Origin: Acidobacteriota bacterium
Lineage (GTDB): Bacteria; Acidobacteriota; Vicinamibacteria; Vicinamibacterales; CAVVIG01
Reading direction: 5' to 3'
Assembly: GCA_003222535.1 (NCBI GenBank)
Contig: QHWJ01000249.1
Span: 1-64,000 of the forward strand
Length of the DNA stretch: 64,000 bases
Shown here: piece after piece, positions 17,503-50,998 of the stretch
Layout of the letters: the number at the start of each line of letters is the position of its first letter
How positions within the stretch are numbered: the first letter of the stretch is position 1
The notes under the pieces: generated by a model
What the model was told of the DNA's origin: nothing
The model's input: only the letters and a program-made list of their open reading frames with translations
Database searches by the model: none
Translations under genes and position numbers: made by a program

Positions 17503-17653
17503 ACGGCACCGCTGAAGCGGTGCCCTACGACATTGACTCCTCTCGTACGTCGGAGGCACGGCACCGCTGAAGCGGTGCCCTACGACCTCTGACTCCTCTC
17601 GTACGTAGGGCACCGCTTTAGGGGTGCCGCCGGCTATTTCAGCGGTGCCGCCG
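17503..17653. repeat. Array of GGCACCGCT-AGCGGTGCC palindromes
   Basis: Two GGCACCGCTGAAGCGGTGCC hairpins followed by CTACGAC, each trailed by TGACTCCTCTCGTACGT, precede a degenerate GGCACCGCTTTAGGGGTGCC. Then comes a duplicated GCCGCCGGCTATT that also supplies the TAG stop of the ADOP permease gene. This is the most expanded copy of the CTACG-tailed REP family in the window. Confidence 0.8.
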
Positions 17654-23309: not shown

Positions 23310-24209
23310 TCATAGCCCCAGCCGGCGAAGATACTCACGGTTGCGGACGGCGCTGGCCGATGGCGTCCCCAGACCCGGCAGCACATCCTGTTCGACGACG
23401 ATCCACCCTGCGTAGCCACCGGCGCGGAGCGCGTCGACCGCGCCGGCCAACGGCACCATCCCGCGGCCCAGCTCGCAGAAGATCCCGCGGCTGACCGCCG
23501 TGTGGTAGTCCCAGCCCTCGTCGCGGGCCGCGCGCGCGAGATCGGGGTCGCAGTCCTTGAAGTGGACGTGCCAGATGCGATCGAGATACCTGGCGATCGT
23601 GGCCAGCGGATCGCCGCCGCCGTACATCAGATGGCCCGTATCGAGGCAGAGCCCCAGGAGCGACGGCGTGGTTCTCGACAGCAGCGCGTCGATTTCACGC
23701 GGCGTCTCGACGTACCCGGCGCAGTGATGGTGGAACACCGTCCGCAGGCCGGCGGCATCCCGCACCGCGTCCGCGACCTGCCCGGCGCGTCCGGCAAACG
23801 CGTCCCACTCGGCCTCGCTCAAGCCGTCCTCCTCACGGATCCGGCCGGCGCGCGCGGTGCGGTTCGGCACGCTCGCGTTGTCGTCGGAGAGCACCAGCAC
23901 CGTGTCGGGGCCGGCCGCCTCGGCCAGCAAACGCGCCGTCCGCACCGCTCGCGCGACGCCTTCGTCGAGCGCCTCCGCCCGGGCCAGTGCGACCGGCACG
24001 AACGCGCCGGCGAGCGCGAGGCTGCGTGTCCCGACGTCGGCGGCGAGCGCGGCGGGCGCGGTCGGCAGGAATCCCCAGTCACCCAGCTCGGTGCCCGAGT
24101 ATCCGGCCGCGGCTATCTCGTCGAGGACCTGCGACGCGGGCGCGTGCCTGGCCGCCTTTTCGAATTCGAGCACCCCCCAGGAGCAGGGTGCGTTTGCCAC
24201 ACGAATCAC
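23310..24209 (-). CDS. iolE: IolE-like inosose dehydratase (sugar-phosphate isomerase fold)
   Basis: The 299-residue TIM barrel starts VIRVANAPCSWGVLEFEKA, the IolE/MocC signature. It has TELGDWGFLPT, the metal-site region TVFHHHCAGYVETPREIDAL, LGLCLDTGHLMYGGGDP and WHVHFKDCDP. IolE dehydrates 2-keto-myo-inositol to the trihydroxycyclohexane-dione that IolD hydrolyses. It starts at a GTG overlapping the iolD stop by four bases (GTGA), so the two are coupled. Confidence 0.9.
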   Translation of the reverse strand: MIRVANAPCSWGVLEFEKAARHAPASQVLDEIAAAGYSGTELGDWGFLPTAPAALAADVGTRSLALAGAFVPVALARAEALDEGVARAVRTARLLAEAAGPDTVLVLSDDNASVPNRTARAGRIREEDGLSEAEWDAFAGRAGQVADAVRDAAGLRTVFHHHCAGYVETPREIDALLSRTTPSLLGLCLDTGHLMYGGGDPLATIARYLDRIWHVHFKDCDPDLARAARDEGWDYHTAVSRGIFCELGRGMVPLAGAVDALRAGGYAGWIVVEQDVLPGLGTPSASAVRNREYLRRLGL

Positions 24210-26203
24210 AGGAAGTCGCGCCCCTTGCGCCGCGCCGTTTCATACGCCGCGCGCGCGCGCTGGACCTCGGGCGACGTGGACACCTCCGCAACCGGCACCT
24301 CCCACCAGGACTCGTAGCCGCTCACCCGCGCCTCGCGATCGACCGGGACGACGATGACCGAGGTTCGGGTGTCGGCGTGTGCGGCGGTAAGCGCCTCGCG
24401 GAACGATGCCAGGGTGTCGGCGCGCCAGACCCGCGCGCCGAGCGACGCGGCATTGGCGGCGAGATCGACCACCAGCGCGTCGCCGTCGAGATCGCCGGTT
24501 GCCGGATTGCGATGGCGGTAGCGTGTCCCGAACCCGCCGCTCCCGATCGACTCCGACAAGCCGCCGATGCTCGCGAAGCCCTCGTTGTCGAGAAGGATGA
24601 TCGTGATCTTGATGCCTTCCTGCACCGCGGTGACGATCTCCTGCGCCATCATCAGGTACGACCCGTCGCCGACCAGGACGTACACGTTCCGGTCAGGGGC
24701 TGCCATCTTCACGCCGAGGCCGCCGGCGATCTCGTACCCCATGCACGAGTAGCCGTACTCCATGTGATAGCCCTTCGGATCGCGTGCGCGCCACAGCTTA
24801 TGAAGGTCGCCCGGGAGGCTTCCGGCGGCGCAAACGATCACGTCGGTGGGGGCGAGGGTATCCTGCAACACTCCAATGACCTGCGCCTGCGAGATCCGCA
24901 TGCGACCGGGCGCTGGGGCCTGACTGGGGACTGGGGACTCGAGAGCACCCTGCGGGTCCGGCGCGCACACGCGATCGACTTCGGCGCGCCATTCCGACCG
25001 CGACGCCGCCACCGCCCCGGTGTATTCCGCGCTCACGTGGTAACCGGCGACGAGCGGCAGAAGCTCGTCGAGCACCGCGCGCGCGTCGCCGACGAGCGAC
25101 AGCGCCGCATGCTTCGCCGCGTCGACTTCCGCGACGTTGACGGCGATGAAGCGGACGTGCTCGTGCTGAAACGCCGTCTTGGAGGCTGTCGTGAAATCGC
25201 TCAGCCGCGAGCCGACGACGAGGACCAGATCGGCGTCGCGCGCCAGAAGATTCGCGGCGCGTGTGCCGGTCGCGCCGATGCCGCCGAGCGACAGCGGGTG
25301 CGGGTCCGGCAGCGCGCCCTTGCCGGCCTGCGTCTCGCCGACGGCAATGCCCGTCGCGTCCGCAAAACGCCGCAGCGCATCGGTGGCCTCGCTGTAGATG
25401 ACGCCGCCGCCGGCGACGACGAGCGGCCGCCGGCTCGCGCGAAGGAGTCGCGCCGCCGCCTGCAGCCGATCGCGATCGGCGCGTGGGCGCGCGATCGTCC
25501 ATACGCGCGGCTCGAACAGCGCCGCGGGGTAGTCGTACGCCTCCGCCTGCACGTCCTGCGGCAGCGCCAGCGTCACGGCTCCTGTCTCGGCCGGCGACGT
25601 CAGCACGCGCATCGCCTCGGGAAGCGCGGTGATGATCTGGTCCGGACGGTTGATCCGATCCCAGTATCGCGACACCGGCCTGAAGCAGTCGTTCACCGAC
25701 ACGTCCTGTGACTGGCTGGACTCGAGCTGCTGGAGCACCGGTGCGGGGCGCCGGCTCGCGAAGATGTCGCCGGGGAGCAACAGCACGGGGACGCGGTTGA
25801 TCGTCGCGCCGGCCGCGCCGGTGATCATGTTGGTCGCGCCGGGACCGATCGAGCTCGTGCAGGCGAGCGTCCGCAGCCGGTTGTGCATCTTCGCGTAAGC
25901 GGCCGCCGTGTGCACCATCGCCTGCTCGTTGCGCGCGAGGTAGTAGCGCAACGCGGGTTCGCAGGGCGCCGCCTGAGCGGTGCCGTCGATTCGGGATTCG
26001 TAGGGCGCCGCTTGAGCGGTGCCGTCGGTTCGCAGTCCTTGCAGCGCTTCACCGATGCCGGCCACGTTGCCGTGGCCGAAGATCCCGAACACGCCGCCGA
26101 ACAGCGGCTGCTCACGCCCGTCGCGCGCGGTGCGCTGCTGCGACAGGAATCGCACGACCGCCTGCGCCATCGTCAGACGTATCCGTGGCTGGGATGCCGT
26201 CAT
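24206..26203 (-). CDS. iolD: IolD, ThDP-dependent trihydroxycyclohexane-1,2-dione hydrolase
   Basis: The protein has 665 residues with the three ThDP-enzyme domains. RLTMAQAVVRFLSQQ and GVFGIFGHGNVAGIGEAL are typical of IolD, RNEQAMVHTAAAYAKMHNR contains the catalytic Glu, and the ThDP/Mg motif is GDGSYLMMAQEIVTA with the Asn in IILLDNEGFASIGGL. The reaction opens the ring to 5-deoxyglucuronate. Residues about 59-83 are a repeat-derived insert (two copies of DGTAQAAP) between GEALQG and LRYYLARNEQ, where related enzymes have a short loop. A second low-complexity stretch near residue 425 (ESPVPSQAPAPG) is encoded by GACTGGGGACTGGGGACT. The start ATG overlaps the iolC stop by four bases. Confidence 0.94.
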   Translation of the reverse strand: MTASQPRIRLTMAQAVVRFLSQQRTARDGREQPLFGGVFGIFGHGNVAGIGEALQGLRTDGTAQAAPYESRIDGTAQAAPCEPALRYYLARNEQAMVHTAAAYAKMHNRLRTLACTSSIGPGATNMITGAAGATINRVPVLLLPGDIFASRRPAPVLQQLESSQSQDVSVNDCFRPVSRYWDRINRPDQIITALPEAMRVLTSPAETGAVTLALPQDVQAEAYDYPAALFEPRVWTIARPRADRDRLQAAARLLRASRRPLVVAGGGVIYSEATDALRRFADATGIAVGETQAGKGALPDPHPLSLGGIGATGTRAANLLARDADLVLVVGSRLSDFTTASKTAFQHEHVRFIAVNVAEVDAAKHAALSLVGDARAVLDELLPLVAGYHVSAEYTGAVAASRSEWRAEVDRVCAPDPQGALESPVPSQAPAPGRMRISQAQVIGVLQDTLAPTDVIVCAAGSLPGDLHKLWRARDPKGYHMEYGYSCMGYEIAGGLGVKMAAPDRNVYVLVGDGSYLMMAQEIVTAVQEGIKITIILLDNEGFASIGGLSESIGSGGFGTRYRHRNPATGDLDGDALVVDLAANAASLGARVWRADTLASFREALTAAHADTRTSVIVVPVDREARVSGYESWWEVPVAEVSTSPEVQRARAAYETARRKGRDFL
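25959..26030 (-). repeat. Two tandem REP copies inserted in frame in iolD
   Basis: TAGGGCGCCGCTTGAGCGGT (right copy, from 26001) and CAGGGCGCCGCCTGAGCGGT (left copy, from 25962) are 39 bp apart and each ends GCCGTCG. They are the GGCACCGCT-AGCGGTGCC/CTACG palindrome family, read on the minus strand as DGTAQAAPYESRI and DGTAQAAPCEP. The unit of 39 bp (13 codons) preserves the frame. Confidence 0.85.
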
Positions 26204-27156
26204 ATGAACGGTTCTCCTCGAGCGGCGACGAACGCGGCGACTTCCTCGAGCGTCGGCATGAAGTTCGCGCAGCCGTGGCGGGTGACGACGATGGCGCCGC
26301 AGGCATTGCCCATGCGCGCGGCCCGCTCGAGCGGCCAGCCTTGCAGGTAGCCGTACAGAAACCCGCTGGCAAAGGCGTCGCCCGCGCCGAGCACGTTCAG
26401 GACCTCGATCGGGAACGGTGCGACGTCGGCGGGCGGGCTTTGCGCGCGGAGCACGGTGGCTCCGCGCGCCCCGCGCTTCAGCACCAGGGCGTCGATGCCG
26501 CTCTCGAGCAGCGCCGCCGCCCCGCGTCCGGCATCGGAGGAACCGGACGCGGCGGCGATCTCCTCTTCCGTGCCGACCGCCATCGTGGCCGATCGCAGCA
26601 GCCTCTGCATCTGGCCGGCAAACGCAGGCGCGCTCTCCCACTGATCCGCGCGGTAATCGATGTCCACGACGAGGGGAACCCCGGCCGCGCGCGCGGTGGC
26701 GGCCGCCGCGAAGGTCGCGTCGCGCGCGGGCTCGTGACTGAGCCCGGTGCCGGTCAGGAACACGACCCGGCTGTCGCCGACCGGCGCCCGTGCGACGTCA
26801 TCGATCGTGAGCGCCCGGTCCGCGCAGTTGTCGCGATAGAACGTCAGGGGAAACCGGTCCGGCGGCTGGATCGTGAGGATGACGGCGCTCGTGCGGCGGC
26901 CGCGTTTGCGCGGGATGAATTGTGTGTCGACCCGCTCGCGCTCGAGGAACGTGGTCACGAAGTCTCCCACCTCGTCGTCGCCGACGGCCGTCAGCAGCGC
27001 CGAGCGCAGCCCGAGCCGGCGCGTCCCGACGCTCACGTTGGTGGGACACCCGCCGACGTACGCGTCGAAGCTGCGGACGTCGGTGATCGGGCAGCCGATT
27101 TCGTGCGCGTACAGATCGATGCTGCTGCGTCCGATGGCCAGCACGTCGTAGGTCAT
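26200..27156 (-). CDS. iolC: IolC, 5-dehydro-2-deoxygluconokinase (PfkB family)
   Basis: The 318-residue ribokinase-fold enzyme has the IolC start MTYDVLAIGRSSIDLYAHEI, GGCPTNVSVGTRRLGLRSAL, the substrate lid, KRGARGATVL and the catalytic anion hole LNVLGAGDAFASGFLYGYL (base Asp in GAGD). It phosphorylates 5-dehydro-2-deoxygluconate made by IolB/IolD. It lacks the C-terminal DUF2090 domain found in many relatives; that domain is encoded separately at 22247-23098. ATG at 27156 overlaps the regulator stop (ATGA). Confidence 0.93.
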   Translation of the reverse strand: MTYDVLAIGRSSIDLYAHEIGCPITDVRSFDAYVGGCPTNVSVGTRRLGLRSALLTAVGDDEVGDFVTTFLERERVDTQFIPRKRGRRTSAVILTIQPPDRFPLTFYRDNCADRALTIDDVARAPVGDSRVVFLTGTGLSHEPARDATFAAAATARAAGVPLVVDIDYRADQWESAPAFAGQMQRLLRSATMAVGTEEEIAAASGSSDAGRGAAALLESGIDALVLKRGARGATVLRAQSPPADVAPFPIEVLNVLGAGDAFASGFLYGYLQGWPLERAARMGNACGAIVVTRHGCANFMPTLEEVAAFVAARGEPFI

Positions 27157-47257: not shown

Positions 47258-47634
47258 ACCGTCCTCCTGCATTTCAGTTCTGTCCTGGAAGCGCATGCGC
47301 ATTGCTCGGACACGCTCCCGGTGCTGCCAGGCACTCATCGTTGGAAGGCACCGCTCGAGCGGTGCCCTACGCATGTTTTCGCCCAGGCACCCCTGAAGGC
47401 CTCGCCGAAGCTCGCTCGGATCGTAAATGAGCGGAGGCGGGAGGTTTTCAGCCGAGCGTGCTGCGTCAGTGTGGAAAGCTGACCGACGCGTCACTGCAAG
47501 TGGCGGACCGGGAGTAAATCTGGAGAGAAACGTGCAGAAATCGCGGCGATCGCGTGTTCGCGCGATGGTCCCGATCCACGCGAATGGAGGGACGTCCCCA
47601 AAAAGGAGGACGTTCGTGATGACGCTTTTCGCGA
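47258..47634. other. Intergenic region with REP palindrome and small hairpin
   Basis: This gap separates the frameshifted gene from the small secreted protein gene, both on the minus strand. GGCACCGCTCGAGCGGTGCC with a CTACG tail lies at 47347-47371, and a degenerate half copy follows to 47404. GTAAATGAGCGGA at 47426 repeats a phrase found at the PEGA gene start (about 1429). ACGTCCCCAAAAAGGAGGACGT near 47594 can form a hairpin. No gene was recognised. Confidence 0.5.
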
Positions 47635-48198
47635 TTACGACGTCTTGCTGTACGTCAGCGTGCGGGTCGTCGATGCGCCGCCTGACTCGAGATCTCGAAC
47701 AAGCGTCAGCGTGCCTCCGCTCACGCTCAGGATGTCGCGGCCCCAGTTCATGCCCTGTTTGTAGTGCAGATGCAGCGCCGCACCGTCCCAGTGCGCGCGC
47801 GTCTTGAGCGCAAGGACGTCGCCCGGCGGCGTCGACATCGTCCTGCCGTCGAGCGTGAAGACGGCTTTTGCCGATCCGATCTGAACCGTGACGTCGCTAC
47901 CGCTCTGCGTGATCGCGATTGTCTCCGGCGCCTGGTTGAACGTCGTCTCCGCGTAGGGGCCGCTGATCCCGCCGCCTCTGCCACCGCCGCCCCGGCCCGC
48001 CGCGACCGGAGGGTCGGTTTTCGTCAGCTTCCACATCCCGGAGAAGTTGGCGCTTCCCTGAGCCGTCCCGCGAGCAGATGGGATCAGAACACACACCGCG
48101 ATCAACAACAGCACAGGCACCCCTGAAGGGGTGCCCCACGTACGCAGGCCCCGCGTACGTAGGGCACCGCTCGAGCGGTGCCCGCATGACTTCGTCAT
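47635..48198 (-). CDS. Small secreted protein with repeat-derived N-terminus
   Basis: The protein has 187 residues. The mature part begins SANFSGMWKLTKTDPPV, a lipocalin-like opening common in exported acidobacterial proteins, followed by a glycine-rich stretch (AGRGGGGRGGG) and beta strands (VTVQIGSAKAVFTLDGR, ALHLHYKQGMNWGRDILSVS). The first 31 residues contain a stretch (GHRSSGALRTRGLRTWGTPS) encoded by two palindromic REP copies at 48117-48183, placed between MTKSC and the hydrophobic core VPVLLLIAVCVLIPSARG. The original signal peptide therefore seems lengthened, or the start has moved to an internal GTG. Function unknown. Confidence 0.68.
   Translation of the reverse strand: MTKSCGHRSSGALRTRGLRTWGTPSGVPVLLLIAVCVLIPSARGTAQGSANFSGMWKLTKTDPPVAAGRGGGGRGGGISGPYAETTFNQAPETIAITQSGSDVTVQIGSAKAVFTLDGRTMSTPPGDVLALKTRAHWDGAALHLHYKQGMNWGRDILSVSGGTLTLVRDLESGGASTTRTLTYSKTS
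48117..48183 (-). repeat. Twin REP palindromes at the 5' end of a gene
   Basis: GGCACCCCTGAAGGGGTGCC and GGCACCGCTCGAGCGGTGCC stand on either side of ACGTACGC...GCGTACGT, giving a head-to-head pair with CTACG-type tails. Same family as 17503-17653 and 47347-47371. Here it lies within the first 30 codons of the secreted protein gene. Confidence 0.85.
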
Positions 48199-48214
48199 GT
48201 TCGTGCCCTCCACA

Positions 48215-49330
48215 CTAGTTGCTCGCCGTCTTCGGCATGAGGGGTTGAGGCTTGTAGAAGTGCGACGGGTCGGCTCCGGGTCTCGGCCGGAATTTCTGCG
48301 AGCGCCCGCCGAACACCTCCGCGGTGTACAGATTTCCCTCCGAGTCGGCGGAGAACTCATGGACGGACCAGAACAACCCGGGCGCGGTGCCGTGCGTGCC
48401 CCAGGCGTACACCAGATGTCCGTTCAGGTCGTACTTGAGAAACTTGTCGAGCGGTCCGGAAAACACCCACAGCGCCTGGTCGCCGCTTATCCGGATGTGG
48501 TACGGCTGCTGGATGTTCGGGAACTGATCGAGGTACTTGCCGTTCTCGTCGAACACCTGGATGCGATTGTTCGCGCGATCGGAGACGTACACGCGGCGGT
48601 TCCGGTCGACCGTGATCGAGTGCGGCGTGTTGAACTGGCCGTTTCCGGTACCCCGGGTGCCCCACGTCATCAGGAACTTGCCATTCCTGTCGAATTTCGC
48701 GACGCGGGTGTTGCCGTAGCCGTCGCTGACGAAGAAGGTGCCGTCGGGCAGCCATGCGATGTCGGTCGGCCGTTTGAAGTGCTTGTCGTCGTTGCCGGCT
48801 TCGTCCCGCTCGCCGAGCGTCATCAGCAGCTTCTTCCCGTCGTTCGAGAACTTGAAAATCTGGTGATGGATGTCGTCGACCACCCAGACGCTGTGCTCCG
48901 GATCGTACGGACTGATCAACACCGAGTGTGGCCCGCGGCCGTCCTCGAACAGATGATCCCACTCGGTCCACGACTCGACCGCCTTCCCGTTCGCGTCGAC
49001 GACGACGATGCAGTTGCGGAATTCCGGGGTGGGAGTGGTGGCCTGCTCGCCGAAGGAGCCCCAGAACCCGGTGAAGCCGCTCGGCAGCTTGTCCGGAAGC
49101 TTCAGCTCGCCGCGGTTGGCGACGAAGATGCGGTTGGGCGTCTCGGCGAAAATCCCGCCGGTCGATCCCCAGATGTATCCAGGCCTGGCATACGCCAGCG
49201 GCTGCGGCCAGTTCGGCACGACGTCGTACGGGCCGGTTCGATCGTCGCCGCCTTTCTCCTGGAGCGATGCGGGCGCGGTGGCGTACCCGACGCCGACGAC
49301 CGCGAGCAGCGAGAGCAGGAATATGCGCAT
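48215..49330 (-). CDS. Exported NHL-repeat beta-propeller protein
   Basis: The protein has 371 residues and a signal peptide (MRIFLLSLLAVVGVGYATAP). It contains five to six NHL-type blades, clearest at HFKRPTDIAWLPDGTFFVSD, FNTPHSITVDRNRRVYVSDR and FWSVHEFSADSEGNLYTAEV. It resembles bacterial proteins related to peptidyl-alpha-hydroxyglycine alpha-amidating lyase, but the catalytic residues cannot be checked by eye, so a binding or scaffold role is equally possible. A strong GGGGAGG precedes the ATG, and a promoter is visible just upstream. It stands 16 bp before the small secreted protein gene and may be co-transcribed with it. Confidence 0.83.
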   Translation of the reverse strand: MRIFLLSLLAVVGVGYATAPASLQEKGGDDRTGPYDVVPNWPQPLAYARPGYIWGSTGGIFAETPNRIFVANRGELKLPDKLPSGFTGFWGSFGEQATTPTPEFRNCIVVVDANGKAVESWTEWDHLFEDGRGPHSVLISPYDPEHSVWVVDDIHHQIFKFSNDGKKLLMTLGERDEAGNDDKHFKRPTDIAWLPDGTFFVSDGYGNTRVAKFDRNGKFLMTWGTRGTGNGQFNTPHSITVDRNRRVYVSDRANNRIQVFDENGKYLDQFPNIQQPYHIRISGDQALWVFSGPLDKFLKYDLNGHLVYAWGTHGTAPGLFWSVHEFSADSEGNLYTAEVFGGRSQKFRPRPGADPSHFYKPQPLMPKTASN

Positions 49331-49360
49331 GCGAACCCTCCCCTTACGGTTACGAGTCGC

Positions 49361-49389
49361 ACTATAATCGCCGCCGTTCATCTCGTCCA
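49361..49389 (-). promoter_or_regulatory. Minus-strand promoter TGGACG-N17-TATAGT for the NHL gene
   Basis: On the minus strand TGGACG (49389-49384), a 17-bp spacer and TATAGT (49366-49361) sit 31 bp before the ATG at 49330, giving a leader of about 24 bases with GGGGAGG. The plus strand of the same site reads TATAAT (49363-49368), so a divergent promoter is possible too. Confidence 0.45.
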
Positions 49390-49426
49390 GAAGGGTGTCG
49401 GAGAAATGTGAACACGCTCCCGGCGA

Positions 49427-49585
49427 CACGTGGGTCGGATAGGTCACGTGGGTCGGGTAGGTCACGTGGGTCGGGTAGGTCACGTGGGTCGGGCAGGTCA
49501 CGTGGGTCGGGCAGGTCGCGTGGGTCGGGCAGGTCGCGTGGGTCGCGTAGGTCACGGTGGGTTGGTTAGGTCGCGTAGGTCGGGT
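49427..49585. repeat. 18-bp tandem repeat array, about eight and a half units
   Basis: The unit is CACGTGGGTCGGGTAGGT. Five near-perfect units run from 49427 to 49516, then drift (CGCG for CACG, GCAGGT for GTAGGT) to 49585. It lies in the 410-bp gap between the divergent NHL and cytochrome/Vgb genes. There are no spacers, so it is not CRISPR. The rest of the gap (49586-49744) shows only the ribosome site of the next gene. Confidence 0.9.
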
Positions 49586-49744
49586 ACTCAGACGGGTTCC
49601 TAGCGGCCAATCGTATCCAGTTTTCGGAAGGCGTCCATGGAATCGGTATTGGGTGGACATCTTCTCGCAGACAGGTAGGATGTCTGGTATCGAAGCCCGC
49701 GAGCAGCACGGGTGGGCGCGGAGATGGCTACCGGAGGAGTGATT

Positions 49745-50998
49745 ATGAGCAGACGCATGCTTCCGATCCTGGTGGTGACGGCTGGTCTCAGCTCGTTGGC
49801 TTCCGCGTCGGCCCAAGGACGCCAGGGCCGGCAGGCCCAGTTGCCCGAGGGGAATGGCAAGGCGCAGGTCGAGGCGGCGTGCAGTAAGTGCCACGGGGTC
49901 GACCGCGTGACGAGCAACGGCGACACACGCGAAGGGTGGGCGGCCCTCATCGCGTCGATGGTGACTCTGCCTAAGCAAGAGGCCGAGGTCATTACAGAGT
50001 ATCTGGGCAAGAACTTCCCGACATCCCCGAAGCCGCCCGCGGTGATCGTTCCCGGACCCGTCACGGTGTCGATCAAGGAGTGGGTCGTGCCATCGCTCGG
50101 CTCCAGGCCTCATGATCCGCTGGCGACCAGGGACGGCGCCATCTGGTGGACCGGCATGTGGGCCAACGTCGTGGGGCGGCTCGATCCGAAAACCGGGCAG
50201 ATGAAGGAATATCCGCTGAAGACGCCGAAATCAGGACCGCATGGCCTGACGGCAGACAAGGACGGGAACATCTGGTACACGGGGAACACCGCGTCGCTTG
50301 TCGGGAAGCTGGATCCCAAAACCGGTGCGATAACGGAGTACAAGATGCCGGATCCCGCGGCCCGCGATCCTCACACGCCCATCTTCGATCGCAAGGGGAA
50401 TCTCTGGTTCACGCTGCAGGGCGCGAACATGGTGGGACGGATCATCCCGAGCACCGGCGAAGTGAAGGTCGTGAGCGCCCCGTCGCCCAGGACCAACCCT
50501 TACGGCATGGTGACGGATTCAAAGGACACGCCGTGGTTCGTCCAGTTCAACGTGAACAAGATCGCCAGCATCGATCCGGTGACCATGGCGATTACGGAAC
50601 ACACGTTGCCGAATGCCGAAACGCGTCCGCGCCGCCTCGCGATCAGCAGCGACGATGTCATCTGGTATGCGGATTATTCGCGTGGCTATCTCGGACGGTT
50701 CGATACGAAGACGGGGAAGACGACGGAATATCCGTCTCCGAGCGGTCCCAGGTCGCAGCCGTATGGCATCGCCGTGACATCAGACGACATCGTGTGGTAC
50801 AGCGAATCGGCGGTGAGCCCGAATACGCTCGTGCGGTTCGACCCGAAGACCGAGAAATTTCAGACCTGGCCGATTCCGTCCGGAGGCGGCGTCGTGCGGA
50901 ACATGATGAAGACCGTCGACGGCAAGAATCTCGTGATGGCCTGCAGCGGCGTGAACCGGGTGGCCTTCGTGGAAGTGGGAATCCGCACCTCACGGTGA
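49745..50998 (+). CDS. Exported cytochrome c-like / Vgb-type beta-propeller fusion
   Basis: The protein has 417 residues, with GGAGGAG before the ATG. A signal peptide (MLPILVVTAGLSSLASASAQ) is followed by a small haem domain with CSKCHG at about residues 46-51. The rest is a repeated virginiamycin-B-lyase-like propeller whose blades read GRLDPKTGQMKEYPLKTPKS, GKLDPKTGAITEYKMPDPAA and GRFDTKTGKTTEYPSPSGPR. Fusion of a single-haem domain to such a propeller recalls quinohaemoprotein dehydrogenase partners. The lyase catalytic residues cannot be confirmed, and antibiotic inactivation should not be assumed. A redox role in the periplasm is more likely. Confidence 0.82.
   Translation: MSRRMLPILVVTAGLSSLASASAQGRQGRQAQLPEGNGKAQVEAACSKCHGVDRVTSNGDTREGWAALIASMVTLPKQEAEVITEYLGKNFPTSPKPPAVIVPGPVTVSIKEWVVPSLGSRPHDPLATRDGAIWWTGMWANVVGRLDPKTGQMKEYPLKTPKSGPHGLTADKDGNIWYTGNTASLVGKLDPKTGAITEYKMPDPAARDPHTPIFDRKGNLWFTLQGANMVGRIIPSTGEVKVVSAPSPRTNPYGMVTDSKDTPWFVQFNVNKIASIDPVTMAITEHTLPNAETRPRRLAISSDDVIWYADYSRGYLGRFDTKTGKTTEYPSPSGPRSQPYGIAVTSDDIVWYSESAVSPNTLVRFDPKTEKFQTWPIPSGGGVVRNMMKTVDGKNLVMACSGVNRVAFVEVGIRTSR

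Follow-up and report, generated by a model that had tools for sequence, protein, structure and literature searches.

How a secreted protein can be made from a gene in which a palindromic repeat separates the start codon from the signal-peptide core is the question raised by this locus. In the window (the whole stretch analysed, 64,000 nt of contig QHWJ01000249.1 from an Acidobacteriota bacterium), codons 6-28 of a 187-aa secreted-protein ORF consist of a pair of palindromes, and the ORF reads MTKSC-GHRSSGALRTRGLRTWGTPSGVP-VLLLIAVCVLI. A first-pass annotation had identified these palindromes as twin REP elements, head to head, and had proposed that they split a plausible start (MTKSC) from a normal signal core, leaving either an odd, long N-region or an internal GTG start. 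The features that bear on this are:

47635-48198, minus strand: small secreted protein gene, 187 aa including the insert, open from the ATG at 48198 to the stop at 47635
48196-48198, minus strand: conserved ATG start (MTKS), with ATGAC.AAGTCA common to the window and the G065 ortholog
48206-48211, minus strand: Shine-Dalgarno-like GGAGGG, its GGAGG and the start codon being 8 nt apart
48116-48183, minus strand: inserted inverted REP pair, 68 nt, recognized by its palindromes and its absence from orthologs
48159-48183, plus strand: first REP (closer to the ATG), with its GTAG tag at 48159-48162 on the plus strand and a rare CTCGAG loop
48116-48139, minus strand: second REP, with a GTGG tag and a CTTCAG loop
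48118-48120, minus strand: internal GTG, a candidate alternative start within the second hairpin, judged by its opening cost
48061-48120, minus strand: signal-peptide hydrophobic core and cleavage region (VPVLLLIAVCVLIPSARGTA)
48215-50113, minus strand: upstream NHL-repeat ORF in an operon-like arrangement, the order being kept in orthologs

Read on the minus strand, 48183-48116 is GGGCACCGCTCGAGCGGTGCCCTACGTACGCGGGGCCTGCGTACGTGGGGCACCCCTTCAGGGGTGCC: two REP hairpins in inverted order whose tags point inward. The individual palindromes, of the form GGCACC..GGTGCC, span 20-22 nt each (48116-48136 and 48162-48183), and the pair taken together has 33-nt arms (48116-48148 and 48150-48182) that are 82% complementary with 1 nt between them. 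We give almost no credence to the idea that the palindromes arose by chance, or that they belong to an ancestral N-terminal extension common to the orthologs. As to chance, the hairpin pattern has 16 matches in the window (palindromes being read on both strands) vs 0.34 expected, and none of 100 shuffles reached 16; this and the ORF bear out the placement of two palindromes at codons 6-28. An ancestral extension is weighed below with the orthologs.

The repeats belong to a dispersed family. In the own genome (G000; 8.06 Mb, 450 contigs, 95.5% complete) a loose hairpin pattern detected about 150 hairpins (150 forward and 148 reverse readings), and a GTAG-tagged pattern with at most one mismatch found 137 copies, as compared to 0 for a reversed-pattern control. 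Across 193 genomes of the class the tagged pattern occurred at all in 14, and among 26 other members of the taxonomic family it was absent except in G062 (2 copies) and G063 (3 copies); from this distribution we infer that the family expanded recently in the lineage of the own genome. A sample of 68 stretches (737 kb) around REP sites contained 80 clusters and 115 oriented copies, tagged GTAG (102), GTGG (7), GCAG (4) or GAAG (2); of five copies with the CCTTCAGG loop, three carry GTGG. Among the sampled pairs of neighbours, 11 were inverted with tags inward, 1 was inverted with tags outward and 22 were direct, and 58 REPs were single. The family shows three hallmarks of the GTAG REP superfamily, namely a short dispersed palindrome, an unpaired GTAG at one end and frequent inverted dimers. 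The window also holds a three-REP cluster of this family at 17504-17629, two direct and one inverted, and, 0.8 kb from the insert and 5' of where the next secreted-protein gene probably starts, a single REP at 47346-47367 that is followed by a degraded second half. The CTCGAG loop was seen in only two sampled copies, both in the window (the insert and the copy at 47347), and the sharing of this loop over 0.8 kb suggests that local copying may have occurred.

Relatives of the secreted protein were sought in the 193 genomes of the class and found in 52, with six genomes besides the own one at E < 1e-50. In two of these six (G052 and G063; loci L042 and L044, also L170 and L169) the domain forms the terminal part of the NHL-repeat protein and lacks a separate start; this fusion hints that the NHL gene and the secreted-protein gene may function together. 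The insert is absent from all four unfused close orthologs (G065, G064, G059 and G058), in each of which an N-region of 4-5 residues leads directly into the hydrophobic core. The annotation had suggested looking for orthologs with a direct MTKS-to-core junction, and these exist: MTKS is joined straight to the core in G065 (L041/L168; MTKSSLLLLLALVVFFPAVTPAQG, MTKSSLLLLL) and a short MTES version likewise in G064 (L043/L171; MTESRLLLLLALIVVVPAVTPAQG, MTESRLLLLL), each gene being preceded, as in the window, by this NHL-repeat gene, while G059 begins MMKRVVPLLV and G058 MKKRVLLWLV. The repeat therefore does split start from core, and the same N-terminal residues encoded without repeat nucleotides, which would have spoken against this, were seen in none of the orthologs. 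Judged by eye, the N-region is short at 18 of the 18 listed loci besides the own one.

The start itself is homologous, with 13 of 15 positions identical between the window (ATGACGAAGTCATGC) and G065 (ATGACCAAGTCAAGC). Global pairwise DNA alignment of the insert region was of little use. In an excision scan with exploratory scoring the best solution was the removal of 72 nt (24 codons) beginning exactly at the hairpin; other lengths and places scored close to this, and the orthologs are only about 60-70% identical. An insertion of approximately 72 nt after codon 4-5 is nevertheless, to judge from the repeat-free orthologs with their direct junction of N-region and core, well supported. A tblastn-type search and one MAFFT run did align the insert to ortholog upstream DNA, as an ancestral extension would predict, but the aligned stretch lies 5' of the orthologs' ATG and a restricted alignment leaves a clean gap. 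We rejected this upstream match as an artefact of unrelated low-complexity residues: it was gone when frames were aligned from about the ATG on, where the start is shared.

A plausible scenario is that an inverted GTAG-type REP pair of a non-autonomous mobile family was copied, presumably by a REP transposase, into the gene just after codon 4-5, adding about 24 codons and leaving the frame unbroken. Counting against this part of the scenario, the only Y1_Tnp gene in the 8.06 Mb (95.5% complete) of the own genome, a RAYT-like gene at L070:1319-1968, has on its flanks 34-nt inverted repeats of another family, which contain CCGGCTTCAGCCGG or a variant of it, and a cognate RAYT with the same REPs as flanks was not found there. 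The cognate enzyme may have been lost, may act in trans or may be encoded in the portion absent from the assembly.

We favor the possibility that translation still begins at the original ATG and continues through the REP pair, the precursor then carrying a long N-region (MTKSCGHRSSGALRTRGLRTWGTPSG), basic and devoid of acidic residues, ahead of a hydrophobic core and cleavage region that are kept behind the insert. All three coding-strand frames through the insert are stop-free, and the ORF gains the REP-encoded peptide stretches GHRSSGALR... and TWGTPSGVPVLL; a GTAG in place of GTGG in the second REP would create an in-frame TAG stop. The GGAGGG and the ATG are intact, 16 nt separate the stop of the NHL-repeat ORF from this ATG, and the calculated cost of opening positions -20 to +15 around it (ViennaRNA) is nearly unchanged, at 16.5 kcal/mol in the presence of the insert and 16.1 in its absence. 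Signal peptides can accommodate N-regions that are long and basic. Export would be expected to continue because of this tolerance and because the whole pre-sequence is removed, and the insertion would have been retained because it is near neutral rather than because it confers a new function. Taken together, in-frame insertion, the ATG start, read-through, continued export and near neutrality form the reading that we consider likely. We also observed short tandem repeats (PTHVTYPTHATCPTH-like when translated) at 49430-49600, just 5' of where the NHL gene probably starts.

It is also possible, if rather unlikely, that the REP pair is now a 5' leader, folding into an RNA hairpin that separates the NHL gene from the secreted-protein gene, and that the start has moved to the GTG at 48120 (MPVLLLIAVCVLI...). 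Such a start would give a normal short signal peptide. Di Nocera et al. (2013; PMC3733652), in the accessible part, caution that many N-terminal REPs of ORFs may, owing to misplaced starts, be extragenic, and they judge the majority of 5' cases from P. putida, C. koseri and S. maltophilia not to be codogenic; this counts against translation of the REP pair from the ATG. In L154 of the same genome, a signal-peptide gene with a REP near its start, two relatives (L201 and L202) appear to start 3' of the REP position, in a search that ranks many paralogs. Several observations argue against the internal start in the present gene: (i) the GTG sits in a strong hairpin that costs 32.7 kcal/mol to open, as compared to 22-24 for three other in-frame starts, and a well-spaced Shine-Dalgarno sequence is absent; (ii) the original ATG and GGAGGG have been kept and the start matches that of the orthologs; and (iii) the ATG frame through the repeat is open despite using a phase that is usually closed. 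As between the two outcomes that the annotation left side by side, the ATG start with a long N-region is thus better supported than the internal GTG, although neither is proven.

Alternatively, the insert may have crippled the gene, either because hairpins 15 nt past the start hinder translation or because the N-region stops export, and the gene would then be in the process of being lost. The predicted structure right after the start is indeed very stable (MFE -108.5 kcal/mol for a 221-nt stretch with the insert vs -50.8 for the same stretch without it), but we find this improbable given that there is no frameshift or stop, that conserved residues of the mature part are intact and that the ATG is almost as easy to open as before. 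The gene 3' of the insert is intact, with 62-69% identity to three orthologs. A Pfam scan of the secreted protein gave no match. The structure model has a mean pLDDT of 64 (below 50 for residues 1-46), predicts the REP-encoded part to be unstructured and matches fatty-acid-binding protein (FABP)-like barrels in Foldseek at an rmsd of approximately 5-6 A; with low confidence, the mature part may be a beta barrel of the calycin/FABP-like kind.

There is ample precedent in the same genome for REPs lying within open frames. For at least 18 of the 80 sampled clusters the surrounding open frame matches a Pfam family; gatA, purH, metH, lnt and iolD are among these genes. These 18 frames were picked by eye from the cluster table, and two others of 20 were left out (L101, an antisense-looking frame, and L117, with the REP before the likely start). 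Eleven of the 80 clusters were flagged as lying within a single open coding frame that has coding signal both before and after the REP, which corresponds to 11 of the 18 being flagged in the same frame on both sides of the REP; by design the survey misses N-terminal insertions, and the window REP pair was itself unflagged. The Pfam scan gave a family match in 18 of 18. Domain positions span or flank the REP in nine (Omp85/TamB-like, DnaE-type polymerase, MetH, Lnt, GatA, polyprenyl synthase, DUF2085, ABC-F and PurH), four (kinase, Hsp70, TolC-type and CtaA) have a domain match split into at least two stretches, with the position of the first one listed, and the listed domain lies on one side of the REP in the remaining five (MutL-like, O-antigen ligase, anti-sigma, TPR and IolD). 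Judging from these frames, REP codons must be read through if full-length products of genes such as gatA and purH are made. Orthologs were inspected for gatA alone among the 18. In this gene (L164:3999-5567; see also L186-L189) the REP site is length-variable and relatives carry other low-complexity repeat peptides there; it is therefore a permissive loop rather than a clean empty site, and one that seems, from these sequences, to tolerate insertions repeatedly.

Within the window, an IolD-like (TPP enzyme) gene (24209-26797, minus strand) contains another in-frame REP pair of this family, at 25964-26024, encoding GTAQAAPYESRIDGTAQAAPCEP. At L157:4093-5628 (minus strand), a CtaA/COX15-like frame contains a REP and several copies of another repeat, which encodes LILRQAQDER. 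A large secreted protein gene at L133:2387-3136 (minus strand) has two tandem in-frame REPs between its ATG and signal core; its start residues (ATGAGAAC) are shared with one of five relatives examined (G044, L196), in a search that ranks many paralogs, and it may be another example of this type of insertion.

Intragenic copies are not distributed evenly over the reading phases. All nine forward copies are in the GTA-GGG phase and 12 of 15 reverse copies in the GGC-ACC phase, and the main phase is stop-free in 115 of 115 copies in both orientations; the lead of the main reverse phase over another, equally open phase is weak (10 vs 2 clusters, p = 0.04). The window insert falls outside both common phases. 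In the phase that it uses, a reverse copy is open in 10 of the 115 oriented copies (stop in 105) and a forward copy in 13 (stop in 102). The open frame of the insert is consistent with selection for an open frame but is not proof of it. We rejected the combination of GTGG and CTCGAG as such proof because both variants are also present outside the secreted-protein gene. A bolder reading, which strikes us as a long shot, is that the family is built to live inside genes and acts there as a mobile element supplying short neutral peptides, its main phase being stop-free and its intragenic copies being almost confined to that phase, with two peptide types (V-GHRFSGA and GTAEAVPY). If this were so, insertions between start and core would be removable N-region extensions that could tune secretion.

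The orthologs show that a REP pair can sit between a conserved start and a signal core with the frame still open, and an Acidobacteriota genome is hereby added whose REP family is found in frame within many conserved genes. With a genome of this type, the phases, peptides and protein positions open to a mobile palindrome can be examined directly. The case also carries a warning that gene callers may misplace starts at REP sites.

Precedent for in-frame REPs comes from the work of Di Nocera et al. (PMC3733652), the accessible part of which describes GTAG-tagged palindromes of 20-40 nt, often in inverted dimers, in frame within ORFs. More than half of the intragenic REPs there are dimers or groups encoding 20-30 aa, some of them N-terminal, and Opitutus terrae is the richest in GTAG repeats. 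The REP pair described here resembles these elements in being an inverted dimer of GTAG palindromes, in frame and N-terminal, and differs from the cases in that text in that the host belongs to the Acidobacteriota, the orthologs put the original start 5' of the repeat and a flanking RAYT was not found. The accessible part of that paper mentions Acidobacteriota once, for transposases, and we found no paper on intragenic REPs in Acidobacteriota in the literature searched. With REPINs, as presented in the portions of PMC3116915 and PMC8266576 at hand, our elements share two inverted REPs, a short spacer and many dispersed copies; unlike in the REPIN/RAYT system, the cognate RAYT was not found and 22 of 34 sampled neighbouring pairs are direct.

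Rickettsia palindromic elements (RPEs; Ogata et al.) are small in-frame palindromes tolerated in conserved genes (excerpts of PMC3733652 and PMC2229807), and a guanylate kinase with an RPE is stated in the latter excerpt to remain active. The likeness lies in the in-frame position within conserved protein genes and in absence from orthologs (all four close unfused ones for the secreted-protein gene). As RPEs appear in those excerpts, they are 105-146 bp or CGTC-tagged and unrelated in sequence, while the tags here are GTAG, GTGG, GCAG and GAAG and the lineage is not an obligate intracellular one. Enterobacterial RU-2, according to the accessible part of PMC2759123, supplies part of the signal peptide of YPO1552, so that there too a small mobile element gives an N-terminal part of an exported protein; RU-2 is part of the predicted signal itself, whereas the REP pair here separates the old start from the old core. 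On the evidence of these sequences, then, the kind of event is known and the case is new, with unusually clean ortholog evidence.
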